A stretch of 64,000 nt of DNA from Stictocephala bisonia. Taxonomy: Eukaryota > Arthropoda > Insecta > Hemiptera > Membracidae. This document shows, piece after piece, positions 445 through 48,836 of the stretch. The notes under the pieces were generated by a model. The model did not search any database. It was not told the DNA's origin and was given only the letters and a program-made list of their open reading frames with translations. How positions within the stretch are numbered: position 1 is the stretch's first letter; the number at the start of each line of letters is the position of its first letter. The stretch covers positions 161,615 through 225,614 of the forward strand of contig JAQJVL010000251.1 of assembly GCA_035578905.1 (NCBI GenBank), read 5' to 3'. Both the position numbers and the translations under genes were made by a program.

Positions 445-914
445 TGGTTGCTAACCAAAGACGATGTTAACGATTTATTTCACATTATGTCATAAGTGCT
501 TAAATAAAAATGAGTTTTGATTTTTGCTCTTAGATAAGAAAGAGACATTATTTAGTTTTGCTGTAGATTTGTTTCCATCAGTTTTAAAACTACAAATTGC
601 ATGTAGTTGTTTTGTTTTGAACGTCACTTACTTTTAATAAATTTTAAGAGCCATTTTATTAATCTGGAAATATTTACTTTCACGAATTGAACAAATCAAC
701 ATTAAAATAACATTCATATCTATATTAACATACTCTTTCTTTTGTAAGTATGATAGTTAAATTAATCAAAATAAGGTATATTATAAATGTAAATATATAA
801 ATAAAAATACAACACTGTGGTATTACCACGAAGAATATAAGTTTATAAAGTACAGACAGTAAATTGATTTTTTGTTTTTCAATACAAGAAATATGTATTA
901 CAAAACCACATTAC
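445..914. other. AT-rich stretch, nothing recognised
   Basis: Low-complexity AT-rich DNA between the retroelement tail and the satellite. No supported ORF, RNA or inverted repeat was seen. Confidence 0.6.
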
Positions 915-3900
915 CCTTTCAAAAGAGGTAGAATGGGCCACGGACTAACTAATAACGTTCAAATATTCTCTAGACTTGAAAAGGTATATCAGAACTCTTC
1001 AGAGGCCTTTGATCATACTGTAATAATATTACCCTTTCAAAGGAGGTAGAATGGGCCACGGACTAACTAATCACGTTCAAATATTCTCCAGACTTGATAA
1101 GGTATATCAGAACTCTTCAGAGGCCTTTGATCATACTGTAATAATATTACACTTTCAAAGGAGGTAGAATGGGCCACGGACTAACTAATAACGTTCAAAT
1201 ATTCTCTAGACTTGATAAGGTATATCAGAACGCTTCAGAGGCCTTTGATCATACTGTAATAATATTACCCTTTCAAAGGAGGTAGAATGGGCCACGGACT
1301 AACTAATAACGTTCAAATATTCTCTAGACTTGATAAGGTATATCAGAACTCTTCAGAGGCCTTTGATCATACTGTAATAATATTACCCTTTCAAAGGAGG
1401 TAGAATGGGCCACTGACTAACTAATCACTTTCAAATATTCTCTAGACTTGATAAGGTATATCAGAACTCTTCAGAGGCCTTTGATCATACTGTAATAATA
1501 TTACCCTTTCAAAGGAGGTAGAATGGGCCACGGACTAACTAATAACGTTCAAATATTCTCTAGACTTGATAAGGTATATCAGAACTCTTCAGAGGCCTTT
1601 GATCATACAGTAATAATATTACCCTTTCAAAGGAGGTAGAATTGGCCACCGACTAACTAATAACGTTCAAATATTCTCCAGACTTGATAAGGTATATCAG
1701 AACTCTTCAGAGGCCTTTGATCATACTGTAATAATATTACCCTTTCAAAGGAGGTAGAATGGGCCACGGACTAACTAATCACGTTCAAATATTCTCTAGA
1801 CTTGATAAGGTATATCAGAACTCTTCAGAGGCCTTTGATCATACTGTAATAATATTACACTTTCAAAAGAAGTAGAATGGGCCACGGACTAACTAATTAA
1901 GTTCAAATATTCTCTAGACTTGATAAGGTATATCAGAACTCTTCAGAGGCCCTTGTTCATACTGTAATAATATTACCCTTTCAAAGGAGGTAGAATGGGC
2001 CACGGACTAATCAAGTTCAAATATTCTCTAGACTTGATAAGGTATATCAGAACTCTTCAGAGGCCTTTGATCATACTGTAATAATATTACCCGTTCTAAG
2101 GAGGTAGAATGGGCCACGGACTAACTAATCAAGTTTAAATATTCTCTAGACTTGATAAGGTATATCAGAACTCTTCAGAGGCCTTTAATCATACTGTAAT
2201 AATATTACCCTTTCTAAGGAGGTAGAATGGGCCATGGACTAACTGATAACGTTCAAATATTCTCTAACCTTGATAAGGTATATCAGAACACTTCAGAGGC
2301 CTTTGATCATACTGTAATAATATTACGCTTTCAAAGGAGGTAGAATGGGCCACGGACTAACTAATAACGTTCAAATATTCTCTAGACTTGATAAGGTATA
2401 TCAGAACTCTTCAGAGGCCTTTAATCATACTTTAATAATATTAACCTTTCAAAGGAGGTAGAATGGGCCACGGACTAACTAATAACGTTCAAATATTCTC
2501 TAGACTTGATAAGGTATATCAGAACTCTTCAGAGGTCTTTGATCATACTGTAATATATTACACTTTCAAAGGAGGTAGAATGGGCCACGGACTAACTAAT
2601 AACGTTCAAATATTCTCTAGACTTGATAAGGTATATCAGAACTCTTCAGAGGCCTTTGATCATACTGTAATAATATTACTCTTTCAAAGGAGGTAGAATG
2701 GGCCACGGACTAACTAATCAAGTTCAAATATTCTCTAGACTTGATAAGGTATATAAGAACTCTTCAGAGGCCTTTGTCATACTGTAATAATATTACCCTT
2801 TCAAAGGAGGTAGAATGGGCCACGGACTAACTAATAACGTTCAAATATTCTCTAGACTTTATAAGGTATATCAGAACTCTTCAGAGGCCTTTGTCATACT
2901 GTAATAATATTACGCTTTCAAAGGAGGTAGAATGGGCCACGGACTAACTAATCACGTTCAAATATTCTCTAGACTTGATAAGGTATATCAGAACTCTTCA
3001 GAGGCCTTTGTCATACTGTAATAATATTACCCTTTCAAAGGAGGTATAATGGGCCACGGACTAACTAATAACGTTCAAATATTCTCTAACCTTGATAAGG
3101 TATATCAGAACTCTTCAGAGGCCTTTGATCATACTGTAATAATATTACGCTCTCAAAGGAGGTAGAATGGGCCACGGACTAACTAATAACGTTCAAATAT
3201 TCTCTAGACTTGATAAGGTATATCAGAACTCTTCAGAGGCCTTTGATCATACTGTAATAATATTACCCTTTCAAAGGAGGTAGAATGGGCCACGGACTAA
3301 CTAATCACGTTCAAATATTCTCTAGACTTGATAAGGTATATCAGAACTCTTCAGAGGCCTTTGATCATACTGTAATAATATTACCCTTTCAAAGGAGGTA
3401 GAATGGGCCACGGACTAACTAATAACGTTCAAATATTCTCTAGACTTGATAAGGTATATCAGAACTCTTCAGAGGCCTTTGATCATACTGTAATAATATT
3501 ACCCTTTCAAAGAAGTTAGAATGGGCCACGGACTAACTAATAACGTTCAAATATTCTCTAGACTTGATAAGGTATATCAGAACTCTTCAGAGGCCTTTGA
3601 TCATACTGTAATAATATTACCCTTTCAAAGGAGGTAGAATGGGCCACGGACTAACTAATAACGTTCAAATATTCTCTAGACTTGATAAGGTATATCAGAA
3701 CTCTTCAGAGGCCTTTGATCATACTGTAATAATATTACCCTTTCAAAGGAGGTAGAATGGGCCACGGACTAACTAATCACGTTCAAATATTCTCTAGACT
3801 TGATAAGGTATATCAGAACTCTTCAGAGGCCTTTGATCATACTGTAATAATATTACCCTTTCAAAGGAGGTAGAATGGGCTACGGACTAACTAATCACGT

Positions 3901-5158
3901 TCAAATATTCTCTAGACTTGATAAGGTATATCAGAACTCTTCAGAGGCCTTTGATCATACTGTAATATATTACACTTTCAAAGGAGGTAGAATGGGCCAC
4001 AGACTAACTAATAACGTTCAAATATTCTCTAGACTTGATAAGGTATATCAGAACTCTTCAGAGGCCTTTGATCATTCTGTAATAATATTACCCTTTCAAA
4101 AGAGGTAGAATGGGCCACGGACTAACTAATCACGTTCAAATATTCTCTAGACTTGATAAGGTATATCAGAACTCTTCAGAGGCCTTTGATCATACTGTAA
4201 TATATTACACTTTCAAAGGAGGTAGAATGGGCCACAGACTAACTAATAACGTTCAAATATTCTCTAGACTTGATAAGGTATATCAGAACTCTTCAGAGGC
4301 CTTTGATCATACTGTAATATATTACACTTTCAAAGGAGGTAGAATGGGCCACGGACTAACTAATAACGTTCAAATATTCTCTAGACTTGATAAGGTATAT
4401 CAGAACTCTTCAGAGGCCTTTGATCATACTGTAATATATTACACTTTCAAAGGAGGTAGAATGGGTCACGGACTAACTAATAACGTTCAAATATTCTCTA
4501 GACTTGATAAGGTATATCAGAACTCTTCAGAGGCCTTTGATCATACTGTAATAATATTACCCTTTCAAAGGAGGTAGAATGGGCCACGGACTAACTAATC
4601 ACGTTCAAATATTCTCTAGACTTGATAAGGTATATCAGAACTCTTCAGAGGTCTTTGATCATACTGTAATATATTACACTTTAAAAGGAGGTAGAATGGG
4701 CCACAGACTAACTAATCACGTTCAAATATTCTCTAGACTTGATAAGGTATATCAGAACTCTTCAGAGGCCTTTGATCATACTGTAATAATATTACACTTT
4801 CAAAGGAGGTAGAATGGGCCACAGACTAACTAATAACGTTCAAATATTCTCTAGACTTGATAAGGTATATCAGAACTCTTCAGAGGCCTTTGATCATACT
4901 GTAATAATATTACCCTTTCAAAGGAGGTAGAATGGGCCACGGACTAACTAATCACGTTCAAATATTATCTAGACTTGATAAGGTATATCAGAACTCTTCA
5001 GAGGCCTTTGATCATACTGTAATATATTACACTTTCAAAGGAGGTAGAATGGGCCACGGACTAACTAATAACGTTCAAATATTCTCTAGACTTGATAAGG
5101 TATATCAGAACTTTTCAGAGGCCTTTGAGTATACTGTAATAATATTATATACATTTTA
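915..5158. repeat. Satellite array, 118-bp unit with 117-bp variants, about 36 copies
   Basis: Head-to-tail units begin near each ATGGGCCACGGACTAACTAA. Starts at 933, 1051, 1169, 1287, 1405 and 1523 give a period of 118 bp. Units are highly similar and differ by point changes and small indels, for example missing bases near 2016, 2777 and 2893. Some units replace GTAATAATATTAC with the perfect palindrome GTAATATATTAC, giving 117 bp. These are near 2550, 3963, 4198, 4316, 4433, 4668 and 5022. Because 117 is divisible by three, consecutive 117-bp units stay in one frame and create spurious ORFs of up to 155 residues (4110-4577). Nothing supports translation. Confidence 0.97.
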
Positions 5159-5440
5159 AAATGATCTCTTGAAACACCTCTCTAAATGTGTAATACTTTT
5201 CCACCAAACACTTTAAAGGCATGGTGTTTTTTCATCTCATTATTAAAAGCAATACAATTTATGTTTACTTGTTACAAATTCTTGTTTCGTATATCATTGA
5301 ATCTGTTATAATATGCCTGTGGTAATTAATATTTCAATTAGGAAACATTTATAACGCAATCTTAATAAATAAAATATTTTTTATATTGAATCGAGACGGA
5401 CTTGTTGTTAGTCCGAAGATTATAATAGTGGAGTAAGTTT

Positions 5441-5666
5441 AAGAACATTGATTTTATTCTCCGTCATCCACTGTAATGGAACTGTATGTCAATAATAACT
5501 TCAAGAAAATGAAGACAATTATATGACATCATTTCAGTTCACTGTAGTGTAATGGTGAGTAAGAAACTCTCACCTATTTACACCTGATGAGACGAAAACA
5601 ACGTCGAAACAGCACACATGGAGACCACCTGGTCTACGCACCAACATCGTTTCGGTGTGGCCTAAT
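5441..5666 (+). repeat. Left arm of ribozyme foldback element
   Basis: Inverted partner of 5789-6014; position x pairs with 11455 minus x along the full arm without gaps. About 94% identity by eye. The outer end begins AAGAACATTGATTTTATTCT and the inner end is GTGTGGCCTAAT. Confidence 0.95.
5541..5613 (+). ncRNA. Hammerhead ribozyme, complete core, stem III open (type III layout)
   Basis: All conserved elements appear in order. Stem III 5' strand is 5542-5545 (CUGU), and cleavage is predicted after A5546 in the triplet GUA. Stem I is 5547-5552 (GUGUAA) with 5578-5583 (UUACAC). After a small internal loop it is extended by 5554-5559 (GGUGAG) with 5569-5574 (CUCACC), closed by a 9-nt loop. The core CUGAUGA is 5584-5590. 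Stem II is GACG 5591-5594 with CGUC 5602-5605 around loop AAAACAA. GAAA is 5606-5609. The stem III 3' strand starts at A5609 and pairs A-U, C-G, A-U, G-C. A further possible pair, 5541 with 5613, is A-C here but G-C in the mirror copy. Hammerheads cleave their own strand to a 2',3'-cyclic phosphate. Chance occurrence of the full set is very unlikely; activity is untested. Confidence 0.88.
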
Positions 5667-5788
5667 TTTTACACATGATTGCAGTTTTCCGCATGACAGA
5701 AGTCTACGGGTTACTCTGCGTTAACAAAAGTAAACCGCCCCTTCTAGGTTCTGCTAAGGTGCCAACTGACAACAGTTGGTTGCTATGC
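5667..5788. other. Spacer of ribozyme foldback element
   Basis: This 122-bp segment between the arms is more GC-rich than the surroundings and includes an internal short palindrome near 5763-5780 (CAACTGACAACAGTTG). No gene is visible. Confidence 0.7.
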
Positions 5789-6014
5789 ATTAGGCCACAC
5801 CGAAAGGATGTTGGTACGTGGACCAGATGGTCTCCATGTGTGCTGTTTCGACGTTGTTTTCGTCTGATCAGGTGTAAATAGGTGAGAGTTTCTTACTCAC
5901 CATTACACTACAGCGAACTGAGTTGCTGTCATATAATTGTCTTCATTTTCTTGAAGTTATTATTGACATACAGTTTCATTAGATTGGATGACGGAGAATA
6001 AACTCAACGTTCTT
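5789..6014 (-). repeat. Right arm of ribozyme foldback element
   Basis: Inverted partner of 5441-5666, the same length with no indels. Transcripts crossing both arms would fold into a long near-perfect hairpin that competes with ribozyme folding. Confidence 0.95.
5842..5914 (-). ncRNA. Mirror hammerhead ribozyme with core mutation G8 to C
   Basis: On the minus strand the same 73-nt fold is present: stem III GCUGU/ACAGC (five pairs, one more than the plus-strand copy), cleavage triplet GUA, the identical two-part stem I, stem II GACG/CGUC and GAAA. The core reads CUGAUCA instead of CUGAUGA, so the invariant G8 is C. G8 pairs with C3 and supplies a catalytic 2'-hydroxyl in known hammerheads, so this copy is probably inactive. 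Only two differences separate it from the plus-strand copy over 73 nt. Confidence 0.8.
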
Positions 6015-6047
6015 ATTTTTTATATTCTTAATAAAACGCAATCTTAA

Positions 6048-20290: not shown

Positions 20291-21903
20291 CGAAAGAATT
20301 AGTGGTAAAATAGGAGGCTACGAACTCTATAGTGGTCCGTCCTATTTATGTTTACTAACATAAACATACGTTTTAGATCTGTAAGTGTTTTTGATACACG
20401 ACTTGTTAAGTCTAATATACTATATAACCACTCTAACTCTATTACACTAGGACCTGTTACACTAGGACTAATGTTATGGACAGCATGAGTACTTATAAAA
20501 TCATTTTGTATATTTTAGCATATAGTACACAACGCCACAATGAGCCTTCAACTTGTGGCCAGCGGTGTCCAAGCTCGGCCACTCACTGGACACTCGGCAG
20601 TGACTGAAGGCGTGTTTTCACGAATCTATTTCAATTGACCGATTTTTTATTTGATCAACAAAAGTTAAAAGTACGTTGAATCAGTTTTAGATCACACGTT
20701 TCACCTGCAATCGATAAGTTTCTGAAAAACGTCTTCGATAGTAGTAGTGCGTGAAGGGGTGAATATTAAACTTAATTATTCTTAACATCCGCATTTCTCA
20801 AATCGGCAATGCCTCTTTCAATATAGGTACTTCCTAACAACTCAATACTCATTTTCACAAGGAAAAAAAAAAAAAAAAACCAACCAATCCCCGACAGACC
20901 ACTGTATGATGATGTATACGTTAGTGAATTAAAAAAATAGTTATTGAGATATACGGCCTTATAGATATTACCCTCGGCCACCCAAACAAGTGGTATTGAT
21001 ATAGCGATTTGAAAAGCAGCTCTGTGATCAACAGGTTCACACTTGTCAACTGACCTCGTGCAACTTAAAGATGACTAATACTTAAACGATAAAGTTTGAC
21101 TCGGTCAAAATTTTTTTTATGCTCTAAAAAGTTGATCGACTGAATTAAAACAAGGTTCTCACTAGGTTTTTTGTTCAACTTTAGTTGATCAACTAAAAAT
21201 CCGCGTGATACCTACCATCTTATACTAGGTACTAAGTACATAATGAAGGCTGCCACAATCAAAAAGTAAAAATATACATAATTTATTATATTAACCAACA
21301 AATAATGCGTGCTGCTCCAAAATTAAAGTTTGAATGAAATGCTGCCTACTGTGACTTATTGTGAATTTTTTTTAAATAATCGATAAATTGAAGGCTAGAA
21401 ACAGTTTAGGAGAGAAAGCTTCGATAAATGGGGTGGTAATGGATTTTCTCCGGTTGGATGAAGCTTAGTATTAGCTGGAGGGGCGATCAGAACCAACTGA
21501 CTATACCAAATACATTTTAACCTTTATAATGCAAAAGGAAGCATTATATTTTAACTATATAGCTAGTATTACTTTTTTTGGTAAAAAAATATGACGTTTC
21601 CTTAAAATTATCACACTTACCTGATGTTGTTGGTGTGGTTGATGAAAATGCGATGTTTTTTATTCAGCCTATGAACAAATCTTGTGACATGCTAAGTCAT
21701 GCTCCATGCTAAAATAAAGATAATATACATGATAAAATAATAGTTGCTGTGATCAAGCATAAGTCAAATAAACAGATTGTTCAGTTAGTAAAACTAACAA
21801 AGCAATAAATAGAACAAAATCATGCAAATAATATATATTTTTACAGAACACATGCAAACTAACACATGCTGAGCACATAATACTTTGAGAGAAAAGAAAT
21901 AAA
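20291..21903. other. AT-rich stretch, nothing recognised
   Basis: It includes a run of 18 A at 20862-20879. About 20530-20620 is slightly GC-richer and unassigned. The minus-strand frame at 20772-20981 is a chance frame through the A-run. Confidence 0.55.
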
Positions 21904-25618: not shown

Positions 25619-26525
25619 TACTTTAATAAGTGTTCAATATGTCCACCATTTTCCCTTATGCAGGTACGGACTGGGTTCCTCAACTCCCTTACACTTGCCT
25701 TTACATTGATTTCATTTCTAAGGCGTCTAACAGCCCTCACGATTCGATGTCTCAATTCTTCGGCTGTTTGTACCCTGCACTTCTGTACACTTCTTACTTC
25801 AAAGAACCCCAGACGTAGTAATCAATAGGGTTGATGTCAGGGCACCGTGGTGGCCAAGAAACAGTACACGTTGAAGTGTGGTGGTGCTCCATCTGTCTGG
25901 AAAATAATGCGCCGACGCAATTCCAACGGCAAGTCTTCGAGAAGGTCTGGTAGGATATTATTTAGAAATCGAAGGTATTGAACTCCAGTTAATGATGTAG
26001 AGAGATCAAGGTAGGGACCTATCAGCTTATCCCCTATCAGTCCAACCCACACGTTTAACTTAAACCTAGTTTGGCTCCGTGATTCACGACAAAGGTGTGG
26101 GTTTTCAGTGTCATAGAAGTGTTCATTGTAGTAGTTAAAAACACCGTCTCGTGTAAATGTAGATTCATCTGTCCACAAGATTGTTTTAAGAAAATCTGCA
26201 ATATCGTGCTGTAAAACCCATTGACAAAATTGACGTCTCAGAGGAGGGTCTCTGGGTTTAATTGTCTGGACACGAGTAAAGTGGTTTGGGTGTATTTGAT
26301 TTTTACGCAAGAGTCTCGACACAAACGACTGACTTACTACACATTCAGTAGCAATTCTTCTTGTACTTGTTCTTGGATCTCTTTTGACTTGGGCAAGTAC
26401 AGCTTCCTCTAACCCAACATCTTGTATGATGTTACCAACGGAGCGTTCATTGACAGGAAATCTACCAGTTTCACACAGAAAATTATGAACCCTTACAAAT
26501 GTTCTTACATCAGGAATTCTTCTCT
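25619..26525 (-). pseudogene. Tc1/mariner-type transposase pseudogene
   Basis: The N-terminal helix-turn-helix region (ETGRFPVNERSVGNII, RIATECVVSQSFVSRLLR) is followed by the catalytic domain. WTDESTFTRDGVFNYYN carries the first Asp, ENPHLCRESRSQTRFKLNVW follows, and QTDGAPPHFN carries the second Asp. Downstream are PRCPDINPIDYYVWG with the third Asp and a typical end, RENGGHIEHLL. The 161-residue open part is 25837-26322. After HFNV a deletion of about 30 codons and a frameshift join directly to the third-Asp segment, so the spacing between the second and third catalytic residues is far too short. A stop follows GSLK. The protein would bind the element's ends and catalyse cut-and-paste; this copy cannot. 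Confidence 0.9.
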
Positions 26526-26824
26526 CTGGAAATCAAGGAATGTATTCTCTGTGACACAATAGAACAAATGCTAATACTCTCACTAATTTTAAGCTAATTA
26601 TGCTTAAGTATAAAAGTAAAAATAAATATTTCCAAATTGTCCAAAGAAGATGATTTGTGTTTTCACAGACTAATATGAGTAACTATTGTTCAAAATGGGG
26701 TAATTATGACAACAGCTGATTTCAGGTACATAATAATAATAAAAGTGTAGCAGCGGATTTCAAATAATAGACCAATCAGCTCATTATGGAAGTTACATGC
26801 AAAACAAAAAACAGGCACAGGTTG

Positions 26825-39194: not shown

Positions 39195-42100
39195 TTCTCT
39201 CAGCAGATAACAGGCTGATATGCCGACACTGTGGAACACTCCCCTCATTACGGGTAGTGACGATCACAACGTACGTTATACCTATCAACGTCTTTAACTA
39301 CTCTTGATATACTCGTTATAGAGATTACATCGTTGTAACATGATGTATTAGACATGCCACGCACTCACTACGATGTATTTCTCTCAGCAGATAACAGGCT
39401 GATATGCCGACACTGTGGAACACTCCCCTCATTACGGGTACTGACAATCACAACGTACGTTATACCTATCAACGTCTTTAACTACTCTTGATATACTCGT
39501 TATAGAGATTACATCGTTGTAACAAGATAACAGGCTGATATGCCGACACTGTGGAACACTTCCCTCATTACGGGTAGTGACGATCACAACGTACGTTATA
39601 CCTATCAAAGTCTTTAACTACTCTTTGTTATACTCGTTATAGAGATTACATCGTTGTAACATGATGTATTAGACATTCCACGCACTCACTACGATGTATT
39701 TCTCTCAGCAGATAACAGGCTGATATGCCGACACTGTGGAAAACTCCCCTCATTACGGGTAGTGACGATCACAACGTACGTTATACCTATCAACGTCTTT
39801 AACTACTCTTTGTTATACTCGTTATAGAGATTACATCGTTGTAACAAGATAACAGGCTGATATGCCGACACTGTGGAAAACTCCCCTCATTACGGGTAGT
39901 GACGATAACAACGTACGTTATACCTATCATCGTCTTTAACTACTCTTTGTTATACTCGTTATAGAGATTACATCGTTGTAACAAGATAACAGGCTGATAT
40001 GCCGACACTGTGGAACCTTCCCCTCATTAAGGGTAGTGACGATCACAACGTACGTTATACCTATCAACGTCTTTAACTACTCTTGGTATACTCGTTATAG
40101 AGATTACATCGTTGTAACAAGATAACAGGCTGATATGCCGACACTGTGGAACACTCCCCTCATTACGGGTAGTGACGATCACAACGTACGTTATACCTAT
40201 CAAAGTCTTTAACTACTCTTTGTTATATTTGTTACAGATATTACATCGTTGTAACAAGATAACAGGCTGATATGCCGACACTGTGGAACACTCCCCTCAT
40301 TACGGGTAATGACGATCACAACGTACGTTATACCTATCAACGTCTTTACCTACTCTTTGTTATACTCGTTATAGAGATTACATCGTTGTAACAAGATAAC
40401 AGGCTGATATGCCGACACTGTGGAACACTCCCCTCATTACGGGTAGTAACGATCACAACGTACATTATACCTATCAACGTATTTAACTACTCTTTGTTAT
40501 ACTCATTATAGAGATTACATCGTTGTAACAAGATAACAGGCTGATATGCCGACACTGTGGAACACTCCCCTCATTACGGGTAGTGACGATCACAACGTAC
40601 GTTATACCTATCAACGTCTTTAACTACTCTTTGTTATAATCGTTATAGAAATTAAATCGTTGTAACAAGATAACAGGCTGATATGCCGACACTGTGGAAC
40701 ACTCCCCTCATTACGGGTAGTGACGATCTCAACGTACGTTATACCTATCAAAGTCTTTAACTACTCTTTGTTATATTCGTTATAGAGATTACATCGTTGT
40801 AACAAGATAACAGGCTGATATGCCGACACTGTGGAACACTCCCCTCATTACAGGTAGTGACGATCACAACGTACGTTATACCTATCAAAGTCTTTAACTA
40901 CTCTTTGTTATGTTCGTTATAGAGATTACATCGTTGTAACAAGATAACAGGCTGATATGCCGACACTGTGGAACACTCCCCTCATTACGGGTAGTGACGA
41001 TCACAGCGTACGTTATACCTAACAACGTCTTTAACTACTCTTTGTTATACTTGTTATAGAGATTAAATCGTTGTAACATGATGTATTAGACATGCCACGC
41101 ACTCACTACGATGTATTTATCTCAGCAGATAACAGGCTGATATGACGACACTGTAGAACTCTCCCCTCATTAGGGGTAGTGACGATCACAATGTATGTTA
41201 TACCTATCAAAGTCTTTAACTACTCTTTGTTATATTCGTTATAGAGGTTACATCGTTGTAACAAGATAACAGGCTGATATGCCGACACTGTGGAACACTC
41301 CCCTCATTACGGGTAATGACGATCACAACGTACGTTATACCTATCAACGTCTTTAACTACTCTTTGTTATATTCGTTATAGAGATTACATCGTTGTAACA
41401 AGATAACAGGCTGATATGCCGACACTGTGGAACACTCCCCTCATTACGGGTAGTGACGATCTCAACGTACGTTATACCTATCAAAGTCTTTAACTACTCT
41501 TTGTTATATTCGTTATAGAGATTACATCGTTGTAACAAGATAACAGGCTGATATGCCGACACTGTGGAACACTCCCCTCATTACGGGTAGTGACGATCAC
41601 AGCGTACGTTATACCTAACAACGTCTTTAACTACTCTTTGTTATACTTGTTATAGAGATTACATCGTTGTAACATGATGTATTAGACATGCCACGCACTC
41701 ACTACGATGTATTTATCTCAGCAGATAACAGGCTGATATGACGACACTGTGGAACTCTCCCCTCATTAGGGGTAGTGACGATCACAATGTATGTTATACC
41801 TATCAAAGTCTTTAACTACTCTTTGTTATATTCGTTATAGAGGTTACATCGTTGTAACAAGATAACAGGCTGATATGCCGACACTGTGGAACACTCCCCT
41901 CATTACGGGTAATGACGATCACAACGTACGTTATACCTATCAACGTCTTTAACTACTCTTTGTTATATTCGTTATAGAGATTACATCGTTGTAACAAGAT
42001 AACAGGCTGATATGCCGACACTGTGGAACACTCCCCTCATTACGGGTAGTGACGATCACAACGTACGTTTTACCTATCAATGTCTTTAACTACTCTTTGT

Positions 42101-42306
42101 TTTATTCGTTATAGAGATTACATCGTTGTAACAAGGTAACAGGCTGATATGCCGACACTGTGGAACACTCCCCACATTACGGGTAGTGACGATCACAACG
42201 TACGTTATACCAATCAATGTCTTTAACTACTCTTTGTTATACTCGTTATAGAGATTACATCGTTGTAACATGATGTATTATGCCACGCACTCACTACGAT
42301 GTATTT
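39195..42306. repeat. Satellite array, 136/137-bp and 184/185-bp units, about 21 copies
   Basis: Units begin at GATAACAGGCTGATATGCC: 39206, 39390, 39526, 39711, 39848, 39985 and so on to about 42133. Short units are 136-137 bp. Long units carry an extra 48 bp (TGATGTATTAGACATGCCAC ... CTCTCAGCA). A higher-order segment of 596 bp, one long plus three short units, is duplicated: diagnostic GATATGACGACACTG units start at 41128 and 41724. The array joins the LINE's 5' side without a gap. Confidence 0.97.
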
Positions 42307-46510: not shown

Positions 46511-47823
46511 GTACGTGATCTTGACCCACCCGCCCACCTATACAAGTACAGTGATATTGACCCACCCACCTATACAAGTACAGTGATCTTGACCCACCCT
46601 CCCACCTTAACAAGTACAGTGATATTGACCCACCCACCTATACAAGTACAGTGATATTGACCCACCCACCTATACAAGTACAGTGATATTGACCCACCCA
46701 CCTATACAAGTACAGTGATATTGACCCTCGCGCCCACCCAAACAAGTACAGTGATATTGACCCACCCACCTATACAAGTACAGTGATATTGACCCACCCG
46801 CCCACCCAAACAAGTACAGCGATATTGACCCTCGCGCCCACCCAAACAAGTACAGTGATATTGACCCACCCACCTATACAAGTACAGTGATATTGACCCA
46901 CCCGCCCACTCAAACAAGTACAGTGATATTGACCCACCCGCCTATACAAGTACAGTGATATTGATCCACCCACCCATACAAGTACAGTGATATTGACCCA
47001 CCCACCCATACAAGTACAGTGATATTGACCCACCCACCTATACAAGTACAGTGATATTGACCCACCCACCTATACAAGTACAGTGATATTGACCCACCCA
47101 CCTATACAAGTACAGTGATATTGACCCACCCACCCACCCAAACAAGTACAGTGATATTAACCCACCCGCCTATACAAGTACAGTGATATTGACCCACCCA
47201 CCTATACAAGTACAGTGATATTGACCCACCCATCTATACAAGTACAGTGATATTGACCCACCCGCCCACCCAAACAAGTACAGTGATATTGACCCACCCA
47301 TACAAGTACAGTGATATTGACCCACCCACCCACCAATACAAGTACAGTGATATTGACCCACCCGCCCACCCAAACAAGTACAGTGATATTGACCCACCCA
47401 CCTATACAAGTACAATGATATTGACCCACCCGCCTACCCTTACACGTACAGTGATATTCACCTACCCACCTATACACGTACAGTGATATTGACCCACCCA
47501 CCTATACAAGTACAGTGATATTGACCCACCCGCCCAACCTTACACGTACAGTGATATTGACCTACCCACCCACCCACCCGTACACATACAGTAGTACTGA
47601 CCCACCTGCCCACCTATACACGTATAGTTAACCCACCCGCCCACGTACAGTGATATTGACCCACCCGCCCATCCATACACGTATAGTGATCTTGACCCAC
47701 CCACCCACCCAAACAAGTACAGTGATATTGACCCACCCACCTATACAAGTACAGTGATATTGACCCACCCGCCCACCTATACACGTATAGTTAACCCACC
47801 CACCCACGTACAGTGATATTGAT
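46511..47823. repeat. C-rich minisatellite, 31-36 bp unit, about 38-40 copies
   Basis: The core unit is TACAAGTACAGTGATATTGA followed by CCCACCC(R)CC runs of variable number, which explains the variable unit length. Many units carry four C-triplets in a row, such as CCCACCCGCCCACCC, which are G-quadruplex motifs on the minus strand. All long frames on both strands here (repeats of ISLYLYRWVGQYHC and similar) come from the repeat and are not genes. Confidence 0.96.
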
Positions 47824-48117
47824 ATAGTATAAAGTGTGATGTGTTTCACATTGGTCAAGACTGTAAATTTTAACAAAATATATACATTTATTTTGTATAT
47901 ATTAATATATTTGCCATTTTAGGACTGATTGTTGTATTGAGAATTATGAGCAATGACAACCTCATAATTATATTTGTTATTGTATATCCATAATATAATA
48001 CAATATTGGATATCCATAATTATAATTGTGGATATCCAATAAATATAAGCATATATATTGGTTAATTTCGAAATATTTTTTACATTTTGGTAAGAAAAGT
48101 TCATTATTCATTATTCA
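47824..48117. other. AT-rich spacer
   Basis: It contains a short cluster of TGGATATCCAATA / TATTGGATATCCA inverted motifs near 47983-48038. No gene. Confidence 0.5.
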
Positions 48118-48836
48118 TCTCAAAGACGCCGATCGTAGAGATATGGGCGAATATGAGGAGTGAATGAGTGTGATGAGTGTAGATGAACGAGTGTAGTCAT
48201 TGTTACTATCTGAGTTCGGCTTAGCTCAGAAAGGACTATTTATTAATAGCCCAATTGCCAGGGCAATGGCATCGTACGTGTATGGGTAGGTGGGTGGGTC
48301 AATGGCATCATACGTGTATGGGTGGGTGGGTGGGTCAATGGCATCGTACGTGTATGGGTGGGTGGGTGGGTCAATGGCATCGTACGGGTATGGGTGGGTG
48401 GGTGGGTCAATGGCATCGTACGTGTATGGGTAGGTGGGTAGGTCAATGGCATCGTATGTGTATGGGTGGGTGGGTGTGTCAATGGCAGCGTACGTGTATG
48501 GGTAGGTGGGTGGGTCAATGCCACCGCACGTTTATGGGACCTCCAGCTTTACGTGGAATCCGAACCACGTAGTGTTGATCTGATTTTCAGCTAACTGACA
48601 AGTCTGACACTCAGTTCTCTCCCCTACACAACATCCGAACCTTGACTACCATTCAACACGGACACTCCAGACTTCTCTAGTAGTGCCTACGTTGATGACA
48701 ACCATTGAGTGGACGCCGTGTTGGTATTAAGAGAACCGAGCATGGAACCTATCGCCTACAATCTCCCAAACACTTTGTCCTCAAGTAGCTGAGTTGCAGC
48801 ACTGCGCCACCAGTGCTGACTTAACCAAAGTAGAAC
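48118..48836 (-). mobile_element. SINE family copy (head A) split by an internal minisatellite
   Basis: The most complete family copy. On the minus strand it runs from GTCAGCACTGGTGGCGCAGT (48836) through CAACACGGCGTCCACTCAAT, GTTAGCTGAAAATCAG and ACTACGTGGTTCGGATTCCA to GGTCCC near 48537. It resumes at TGCCCTGGCAATTGGGCTAT (48266 downward) and ends past CATCTACACTCATCACACTC. Between the two parts lies the 36-bp minisatellite. Confidence 0.85.
48267..48536. repeat. 36-bp G-rich minisatellite inside the SINE
   Basis: About seven units of GTATGGGTGGGTGGGTGGGT + CAATGGCATCGTACGT. Three consecutive units (near 48319, 48355 and 48391) contain the unbroken tract GGGTGGGTGGGTGGGT; the others have one or two G losses. 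Frames on both strands are repeat artefacts. Confidence 0.95.

Follow-up and report, generated by a model that had tools for sequence, protein, structure and literature searches.

A type III hammerhead in an inverted insertion

The analysed window comprised 64,000 nucleotides of contig JAQJVL010000251.1 (positions 161,615 to 225,614) of the membracid Stictocephala bisonia. A foldback element with two inverted arms was located at 5388-6015. It represented one copy of a dispersed family and was bordered by a 13-bp target-site duplication (TSD). The left arm carried a complete type III hammerhead at 5542-5612 (+), with all invariant core nucleotides, three helices and an open helix III. Both strands of the family's unit, which is about 706 nt long, bear a hammerhead, and the family is probably non-autonomous, retrozyme-like and mobilised by a Penelope-type enzyme.

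The hammerhead was assigned by a descriptor, by its letters and by conservation in the family. Stem III comprised 4 bp (5542-5545/5609-5612), and cleavage is predicted from the letters after A5546 (GUA). Stem I (5547-5552/5578-5583) was followed by an internal loop of U5553 and UAU (5575-5577) and by a distal helix GGUGAG/CUCACC (5554-5559/5569-5574). The CUGAUGA core (5584-5590) preceded stem II (5591-5594/5602-5605) with its loop AAAACAA, and the GAAA core occupied 5606-5609. A sequence-only reading had described a complete hammerhead at 5541-5613, with three ordered helices around a full core, a stem I that is interrupted by an internal loop and capped by a distal hairpin, and an open helix III. 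Letter by letter, this anatomy was borne out except for the outermost pair A5541/C5613, which is a mismatch and leaves stem III at 4 bp.

The type III descriptor with the core CUGAUGA had its sole match in the window at 5542-5612 (+), and 300 Markov-resampled 64-kb windows gave 0 matches on both strands. By conditional sampling, a loose descriptor (total stem length no shorter than here, G-U pairs allowed) was expected to match 3.1e-4 times per window. For stems that are entirely Watson-Crick and reach 6/4/4 bp or more, the expectation was 9e-7 (5 in 32 million core contexts). The Rfam hammerhead models, proposed as a check in the sequence-only reading, did not match the window at the gathering score or at E ≤ 10, and gave no hammerhead in the family loci. 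They also missed the canonical (-) hammerhead of the unit described below and found no hammerhead in Pseudomonas phage PaP3, the intended positive control. The control was uninformative because a legend on core variants in PMC3088659 names PaP3. The Rfam negative therefore says little, since a canonical hammerhead was missed too and there was no working positive control. A covariance model built solely from the (-) hammerheads recovered the window motif in the correct register, with E 0.18, as second among 8 matches; the top match (20696-20739, E 0.06) was without a CUGANGA core. One exact pattern scanned against IMG/VR gave 0 matches.

The left TSD (5375-5387) matched 6014-6026 exactly, and the right TSD overlapped the arm end by 2 nt. 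The left arm (5388-5666, +) corresponded to unit positions u1-u279. Its first 52 nt (u1-u52, 5388-5439, +) formed a tail that was present in this arm only and was compared with the tail of Penelope-like elements (PLEs) described in PMC11167929 and PMC3846280. An AC-rich stem-loop, GGACU-loop-AGUCC, lay on the (-) RNA at 5398-5414. The right arm (5664-6015, -) held u53-u404 in inverted orientation and had no tail. Complementarity between 5440-5666 and 5789-6015 amounted to 94%. The right-arm hammerhead (5842-5914, -) had a 5-bp stem III and the core CUGAUCA, while the common family state is CTGATGA. Because G8 is C, this copy of the ribozyme is expected to be inactive; G8C abolishes a Penelope hammerhead in PMC11167929. 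The arms of the window copy differed at 2/73 hammerhead positions and 12/154 positions outside, which was not significant (p 0.24). An exact 13-bp direct repeat, AACGCAATCTTAA, was found just outside the TSDs at 5353-5365 and 6035-6047. It was at first considered as the TSD and gave way to the present one, also of 13 bp, when the ends of the element had been determined; such a repeat was reached in 3/400 shuffles and 2/400 random pairs.

Thermodynamic models of the growing transcript predicted stem I as likely until about 5860. Stem II depended on the transcript start and was gone by 5860, and stem III was weak, with 0.29 at best. Beyond 5900 the arms paired and all three helices disappeared. 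Because longer transcripts pair arm to arm in this model, cleavage in the window copy would have to be co-transcriptional.

The unit of about 706 nt and its family

The family was searched for in the genome of 1.68 Gb (11,105 contigs). The element query yielded 534 first-look candidates, 40 of which were scored and gave 122 matches. The central query yielded 388 candidates and the tail query 362, with 40 scored each. The main set comprised 60 loci (L002-L061), or 50 after removal of ten that overlapped others. Since these loci are the best-scoring copies, old and broken copies are under-represented.

The unit repeated head to tail every 704-709 bp (e.g. L013, L028, L031, L041, L048, L054 and L055). 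The foldback context recognised in the sequence-only reading was confirmed, but the foldback is not the element itself: it is a frequent insertion product of the head-to-tail unit. An arthropod-like host, also suggested there, agreed with the repeat counts: (TTAGG)6, a run of the arthropod-type telomere motif, had 11,765 overlapping exact matches in the genome, and the reversed control had 0.

The (-) strand of the unit held a second, canonical type III hammerhead, which was missing from the window copy. It comprised a stem I of 6 bp with a 6-nt loop, CUGACGA, a stem II of 4 bp with a 6-nt loop, GAAA, a stem III of 4 bp and a GUC cleavage triplet. Its helices had the usual type III form given in PMC7936874. 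The invariant core was intact in 54 of 69 (+) hammerhead instances, on 46 contigs, and in 22 of 32 (-) instances, on 25 contigs. All instances were distinct genome places, and 5 (+) and 1 (-) shorter hits were dropped.

Second alleles at a frequency of at least 12% were present at 53 unit sites, and the family holds at least two subfamilies. In the (+) hammerhead, only four loop sites were affected. Helices and core of both hammerheads together had 2/90 second-allele sites compared with 51/616 elsewhere (p 0.05), and those of the (+) hammerhead alone had 0/52 (p 0.03). This suggests constraint on helix and core sites, of a kind that is not ribozyme-specific (see below). In one unit piece, none of the 26 pairs predicted by RNAalifold had changed on both sides, and for a second piece no common fold was obtained. 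A hairpin in the unit that was named by hand showed two both-side changes, each in one sequence, a result reached by 16/500 shuffles.

Two loci, L086 and L090, contained tandem arrays of 232/233 bp composed of u673-706 plus u1-196 or u1-197, that is, deletion derivatives of the unit. These arrays were without a complete hammerhead. One side of the array junction was exactly the (-) hammerhead cleavage site u672|673, and the other was the base of (+) stem I. The letters of the junction fit a cleaved (-) RNA end that would have been joined on. A further array of 64 bp, from the tail region plus a few bases, was present at L066:2250-2571.

Insertion ends and the proposed mobilisation

For 46 copies both ends lay well inside the locus; clusters shorter than 150 bp, and those within 60 bp of either end of the locus, had been removed. 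Of these bounded copies, 22 were inverted and 24 direct. Relative to the (-) RNA, the arms of inverted copies lay head to head. One outer end at u1-4 was paired with the other at u47-60 in 20/22 inverted copies, the exceptions being L015 (u381/u53) and L040 (u98/u1). The direct copies had a u1-type end in 6 cases, a u47-60 end in 16 and neither in 2. With the two exceptions excluded, mixed pairs (20/20) had a probability of 9e-9 under independent choice at p=0.40, a base rate taken from the end types of the direct copies and rough, as these had been fetched with particular queries. A TSD score of at least 8 was reached by 16/22 inverted copies and by 2/462 mismatched flank pairs. The AC-rich stem-loop lay on the (-) RNA beside the u1 start, within the 52 nt between the two ends, and all 5 of its pairs were kept in 47/54 ungapped family copies. 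Three of the 24 direct copies (L036, L044 and L052) spanned exactly one unit, with the opening at u54/55 or u55/56; a single passage around a circle would be expected to leave such copies. The upper ends of the complementary DNA (cDNA) gathered at u450-479, with 15/106 in the 450 and 465 bins, which may mark a stop or an RNA end.

In PMC11167929, PLE reverse transcriptase (RT) begins synthesis at two neighbouring internal sites, which delimit the genomic tail. Targets are AT-rich, their two strands are both cleaved and extended, and the start point falls in an AC-rich stem-loop. The copies described here carry the Penelope-like "tail" signature of that paper, and the ribozymes on both strands, the unit length, the two fixed ends with their pairing, the TSDs and the stem-loop can all be read in the DNA. 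From the resemblance of the end, tail, TSD and stem-loop marks to published PLE behaviour, we infer Penelope-type mobilisation. The enzyme itself, a (-) RNA template, circular RNA and self-cleavage in the cell would be parts of the following route. Family transcripts may be multimeric or circular, with the extended type III hammerhead on the (+) strand and the canonical one on the (-) strand. A Penelope-like reverse transcriptase/endonuclease would act in trans on the (-) RNA and cut both strands of AT-rich target DNA. Two fixed positions some 52 nt from each other, next to the AC-rich stem-loop, would serve as alternative cDNA starts. If both target strands prime, two cDNAs would meet mid-way and leave an inverted foldback with short TSDs, like the window copy; priming from one strand would yield single or tandem copies, or copies of exactly unit length.

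Several observations weigh against this interpretation. Positions u1-153 plus u685-706 were also low in second-allele sites (6/175), so the hammerhead helix and core sites do not stand out clearly from u1-153 and the suggested constraint is not specific to the ribozymes. Compensatory changes on both sides of a helix were absent in the (+) and (-) hammerheads (20 and 18 aligned copies); the sequence-only reading had named such changes together with helix-preserving genomic copies, and only the latter were found. The choice of best-scoring loci favours intact cores. The pairing of one end of each kind is not accounted for by the Anolis PLE in vitro, which showed no start-site difference from one target strand to the other (PMC11167929). 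A TSD score of at least 8 was reached in just 8/24 direct copies (7/552 mismatched flank pairs), and a single event may underlie both of the 232/233-bp arrays. The cDNA upper ends were not clustered at the cleavage sites, with 0/106 in 660-674 and 2 in 150-164, which agrees with unprocessed RNA as the main Penelope substrate in vitro (PMC11167929). Finally, PLE hammerheads are type I in the literature compared, whereas those found here are type III and on both strands.

The most serious competitor, although an unlikely one, is an animal retroviroid that would replicate from RNA to RNA by a symmetric rolling circle with one hammerhead per strand and would occasionally enter the genome as DNA made by a Penelope-like enzyme. 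Hammerheads in both polarities are the layout of Avsunviroidae and of CarSV, and the unit-length and multimeric copies have a counterpart in the head-to-tail DNA multimers of CarSV (PMC11722881). One natural unit also folded more stably than 40 shuffles (z -5.1). However, this fold was branched, with 16 hairpin loops, and formed no rod, and hundreds of genomic copies could furnish all transcripts.

It is less probable still that the unit is a piece, or pseudo-LTR (LTR, long terminal repeat), of an autonomous PLE. The tail, the stem-loop and the inverted and tandem layout are Penelope features and would be accounted for. Against this, successive head-to-tail units had no long open reading frame (ORF) between them. 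The longest frame in two copies was 132 aa on the (-) strand of the unit (L031:723-1121 (-) and L013:1320-1718 (+)), and no homologue was found when two of the unit's frames, this one included, were used in protein searches. Among the frames of the two copies, no RT or GIY-YIG endonuclease ORF was present. The type and strandedness of the hammerheads speak against this origin as well.

A foldback or miniature inverted-repeat DNA transposon with long terminal inverted repeats, in which the hammerhead would be incidental, is very improbable. It would explain the 22/46 bounded copies with inverted arms and TSDs, but not the 24/46 without inversion or the fact that both ribozyme cores are mostly kept, and it was rejected because the arm ends are asymmetric by about 52 nt and the units occur in tandem. 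That the window motif is a chance match can be practically dismissed: the empty Rfam search would fit, but about 1e-6 such motifs are expected per window, the unit holds a second hammerhead and dozens of copies bear the core.

The window contained further features outside the element. A satellite array at 910-5147, in which a 118-bp unit occurs 36 times, ended about 240 bp before it. Another array, at 39205-42274, was built on a 137-bp unit and also showed longer periods, of 321-322 and 459 bp. A 231-aa frame at 25837-26532 (-) resembled a Tc-type transposase, with homologues of up to 73% identity and a Pfam HTH_Tnp_Tc3_2 match below the cut-off. At 46511-48538 there were strand-skewed minisatellites in which ACCCACCC or its complement was abundant.

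Comparison with known systems

The family shares with PLEs the two fixed starts with an optional tail, the AC-rich stem-loop, inverted and partial-tandem copies, short TSDs and a hammerhead. It differs in that the unit has no RT or endonuclease ORF and that the tail comprises 52 nt, compared with 30-40 nt in the PLEs described. Adineta PLEs have an optional 31-bp tail on one inverted repeat and TSDs of 8-10 bp; head-to-head inversion is their most frequent form, and their pseudo-LTRs mobilised an unrelated gene in trans (PMC3846280). The sequence-only reading had set the open stem III apart from PLEs. By insertion mechanism it is no separator, because the copies carry the Penelope tail signature.

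The same reading considered that the family may be undescribed. As a ribozyme form, extended type III hammerheads with a helix I internal loop and a distal hairpin are already described in termite and dipteran genomes (PMC7936874). With these atypical motifs, also reported there for agents like hepatitis delta virus, the window hammerhead shares a short first stem I, an internal loop and a distal hairpin of about 20 nt. In the sequence-only reading, the stem I arrangement was proposed to favour fast cleavage through loop contacts with stem II. The published contact, in which GCCR of the internal loop of helix I pairs with YGGC of loop II, was absent in the window hammerhead, whose loops are U/UAU and AAAACAA. 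The termite motifs are reported as isolated, whereas a defined mobile family is present here.

Metazoan retrozymes have a type I hammerhead and a unit of about 170-400 nt, and PLEs have been proposed as their mobilisers (PMC7229834). Those of the non-LTR kind are likewise small, non-coding head-to-tail hammerhead repeats in animal genomes, with a GC content below 50% and suspected PLE mobilisation. The present family differs by its type III motifs, which occur on both strands, by its longer unit (about 706 nt) and by inverted copies that bear a Penelope-type tail. Judged by sequence, it stands outside metazoan retrozymes as defined in that account (type I, 170-400 nt) and outside autonomous PLEs; in its behaviour it most resembles a Penelope-mobilised retrozyme. 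Plant LTR retrozymes also combine a type III hammerhead with a unit of several hundred nt, but they have LTRs, a primer-binding site and a 4-bp TSD (PMC7229834); here, a tail and TSDs longer than 4 bp (search minimum 6) were found.

Which enzyme mobilises the hammerhead circular RNAs of animals is an open question, for which PLEs are a strong candidate by shared features and co-occurrence (PMC7229834). This family makes the question directly testable, since the Penelope tail signature is present in its insertion scars. A search that covered mainly openly accessible literature found no description of an animal-genome family with hammerheads on both strands. Viroids and the CarSV retroviroid show the arrangement seen in this chromosomal family. 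Compared with CarSV, a plant agent of 275 nt whose extrachromosomal DNA occurs beside pararetrovirus sequence (PMC11722881), it is larger, chromosomal and animal. An animal retroviroid, if true, would be a single system in animals where retrozymes, Penelope elements and viroid-like agents come together.
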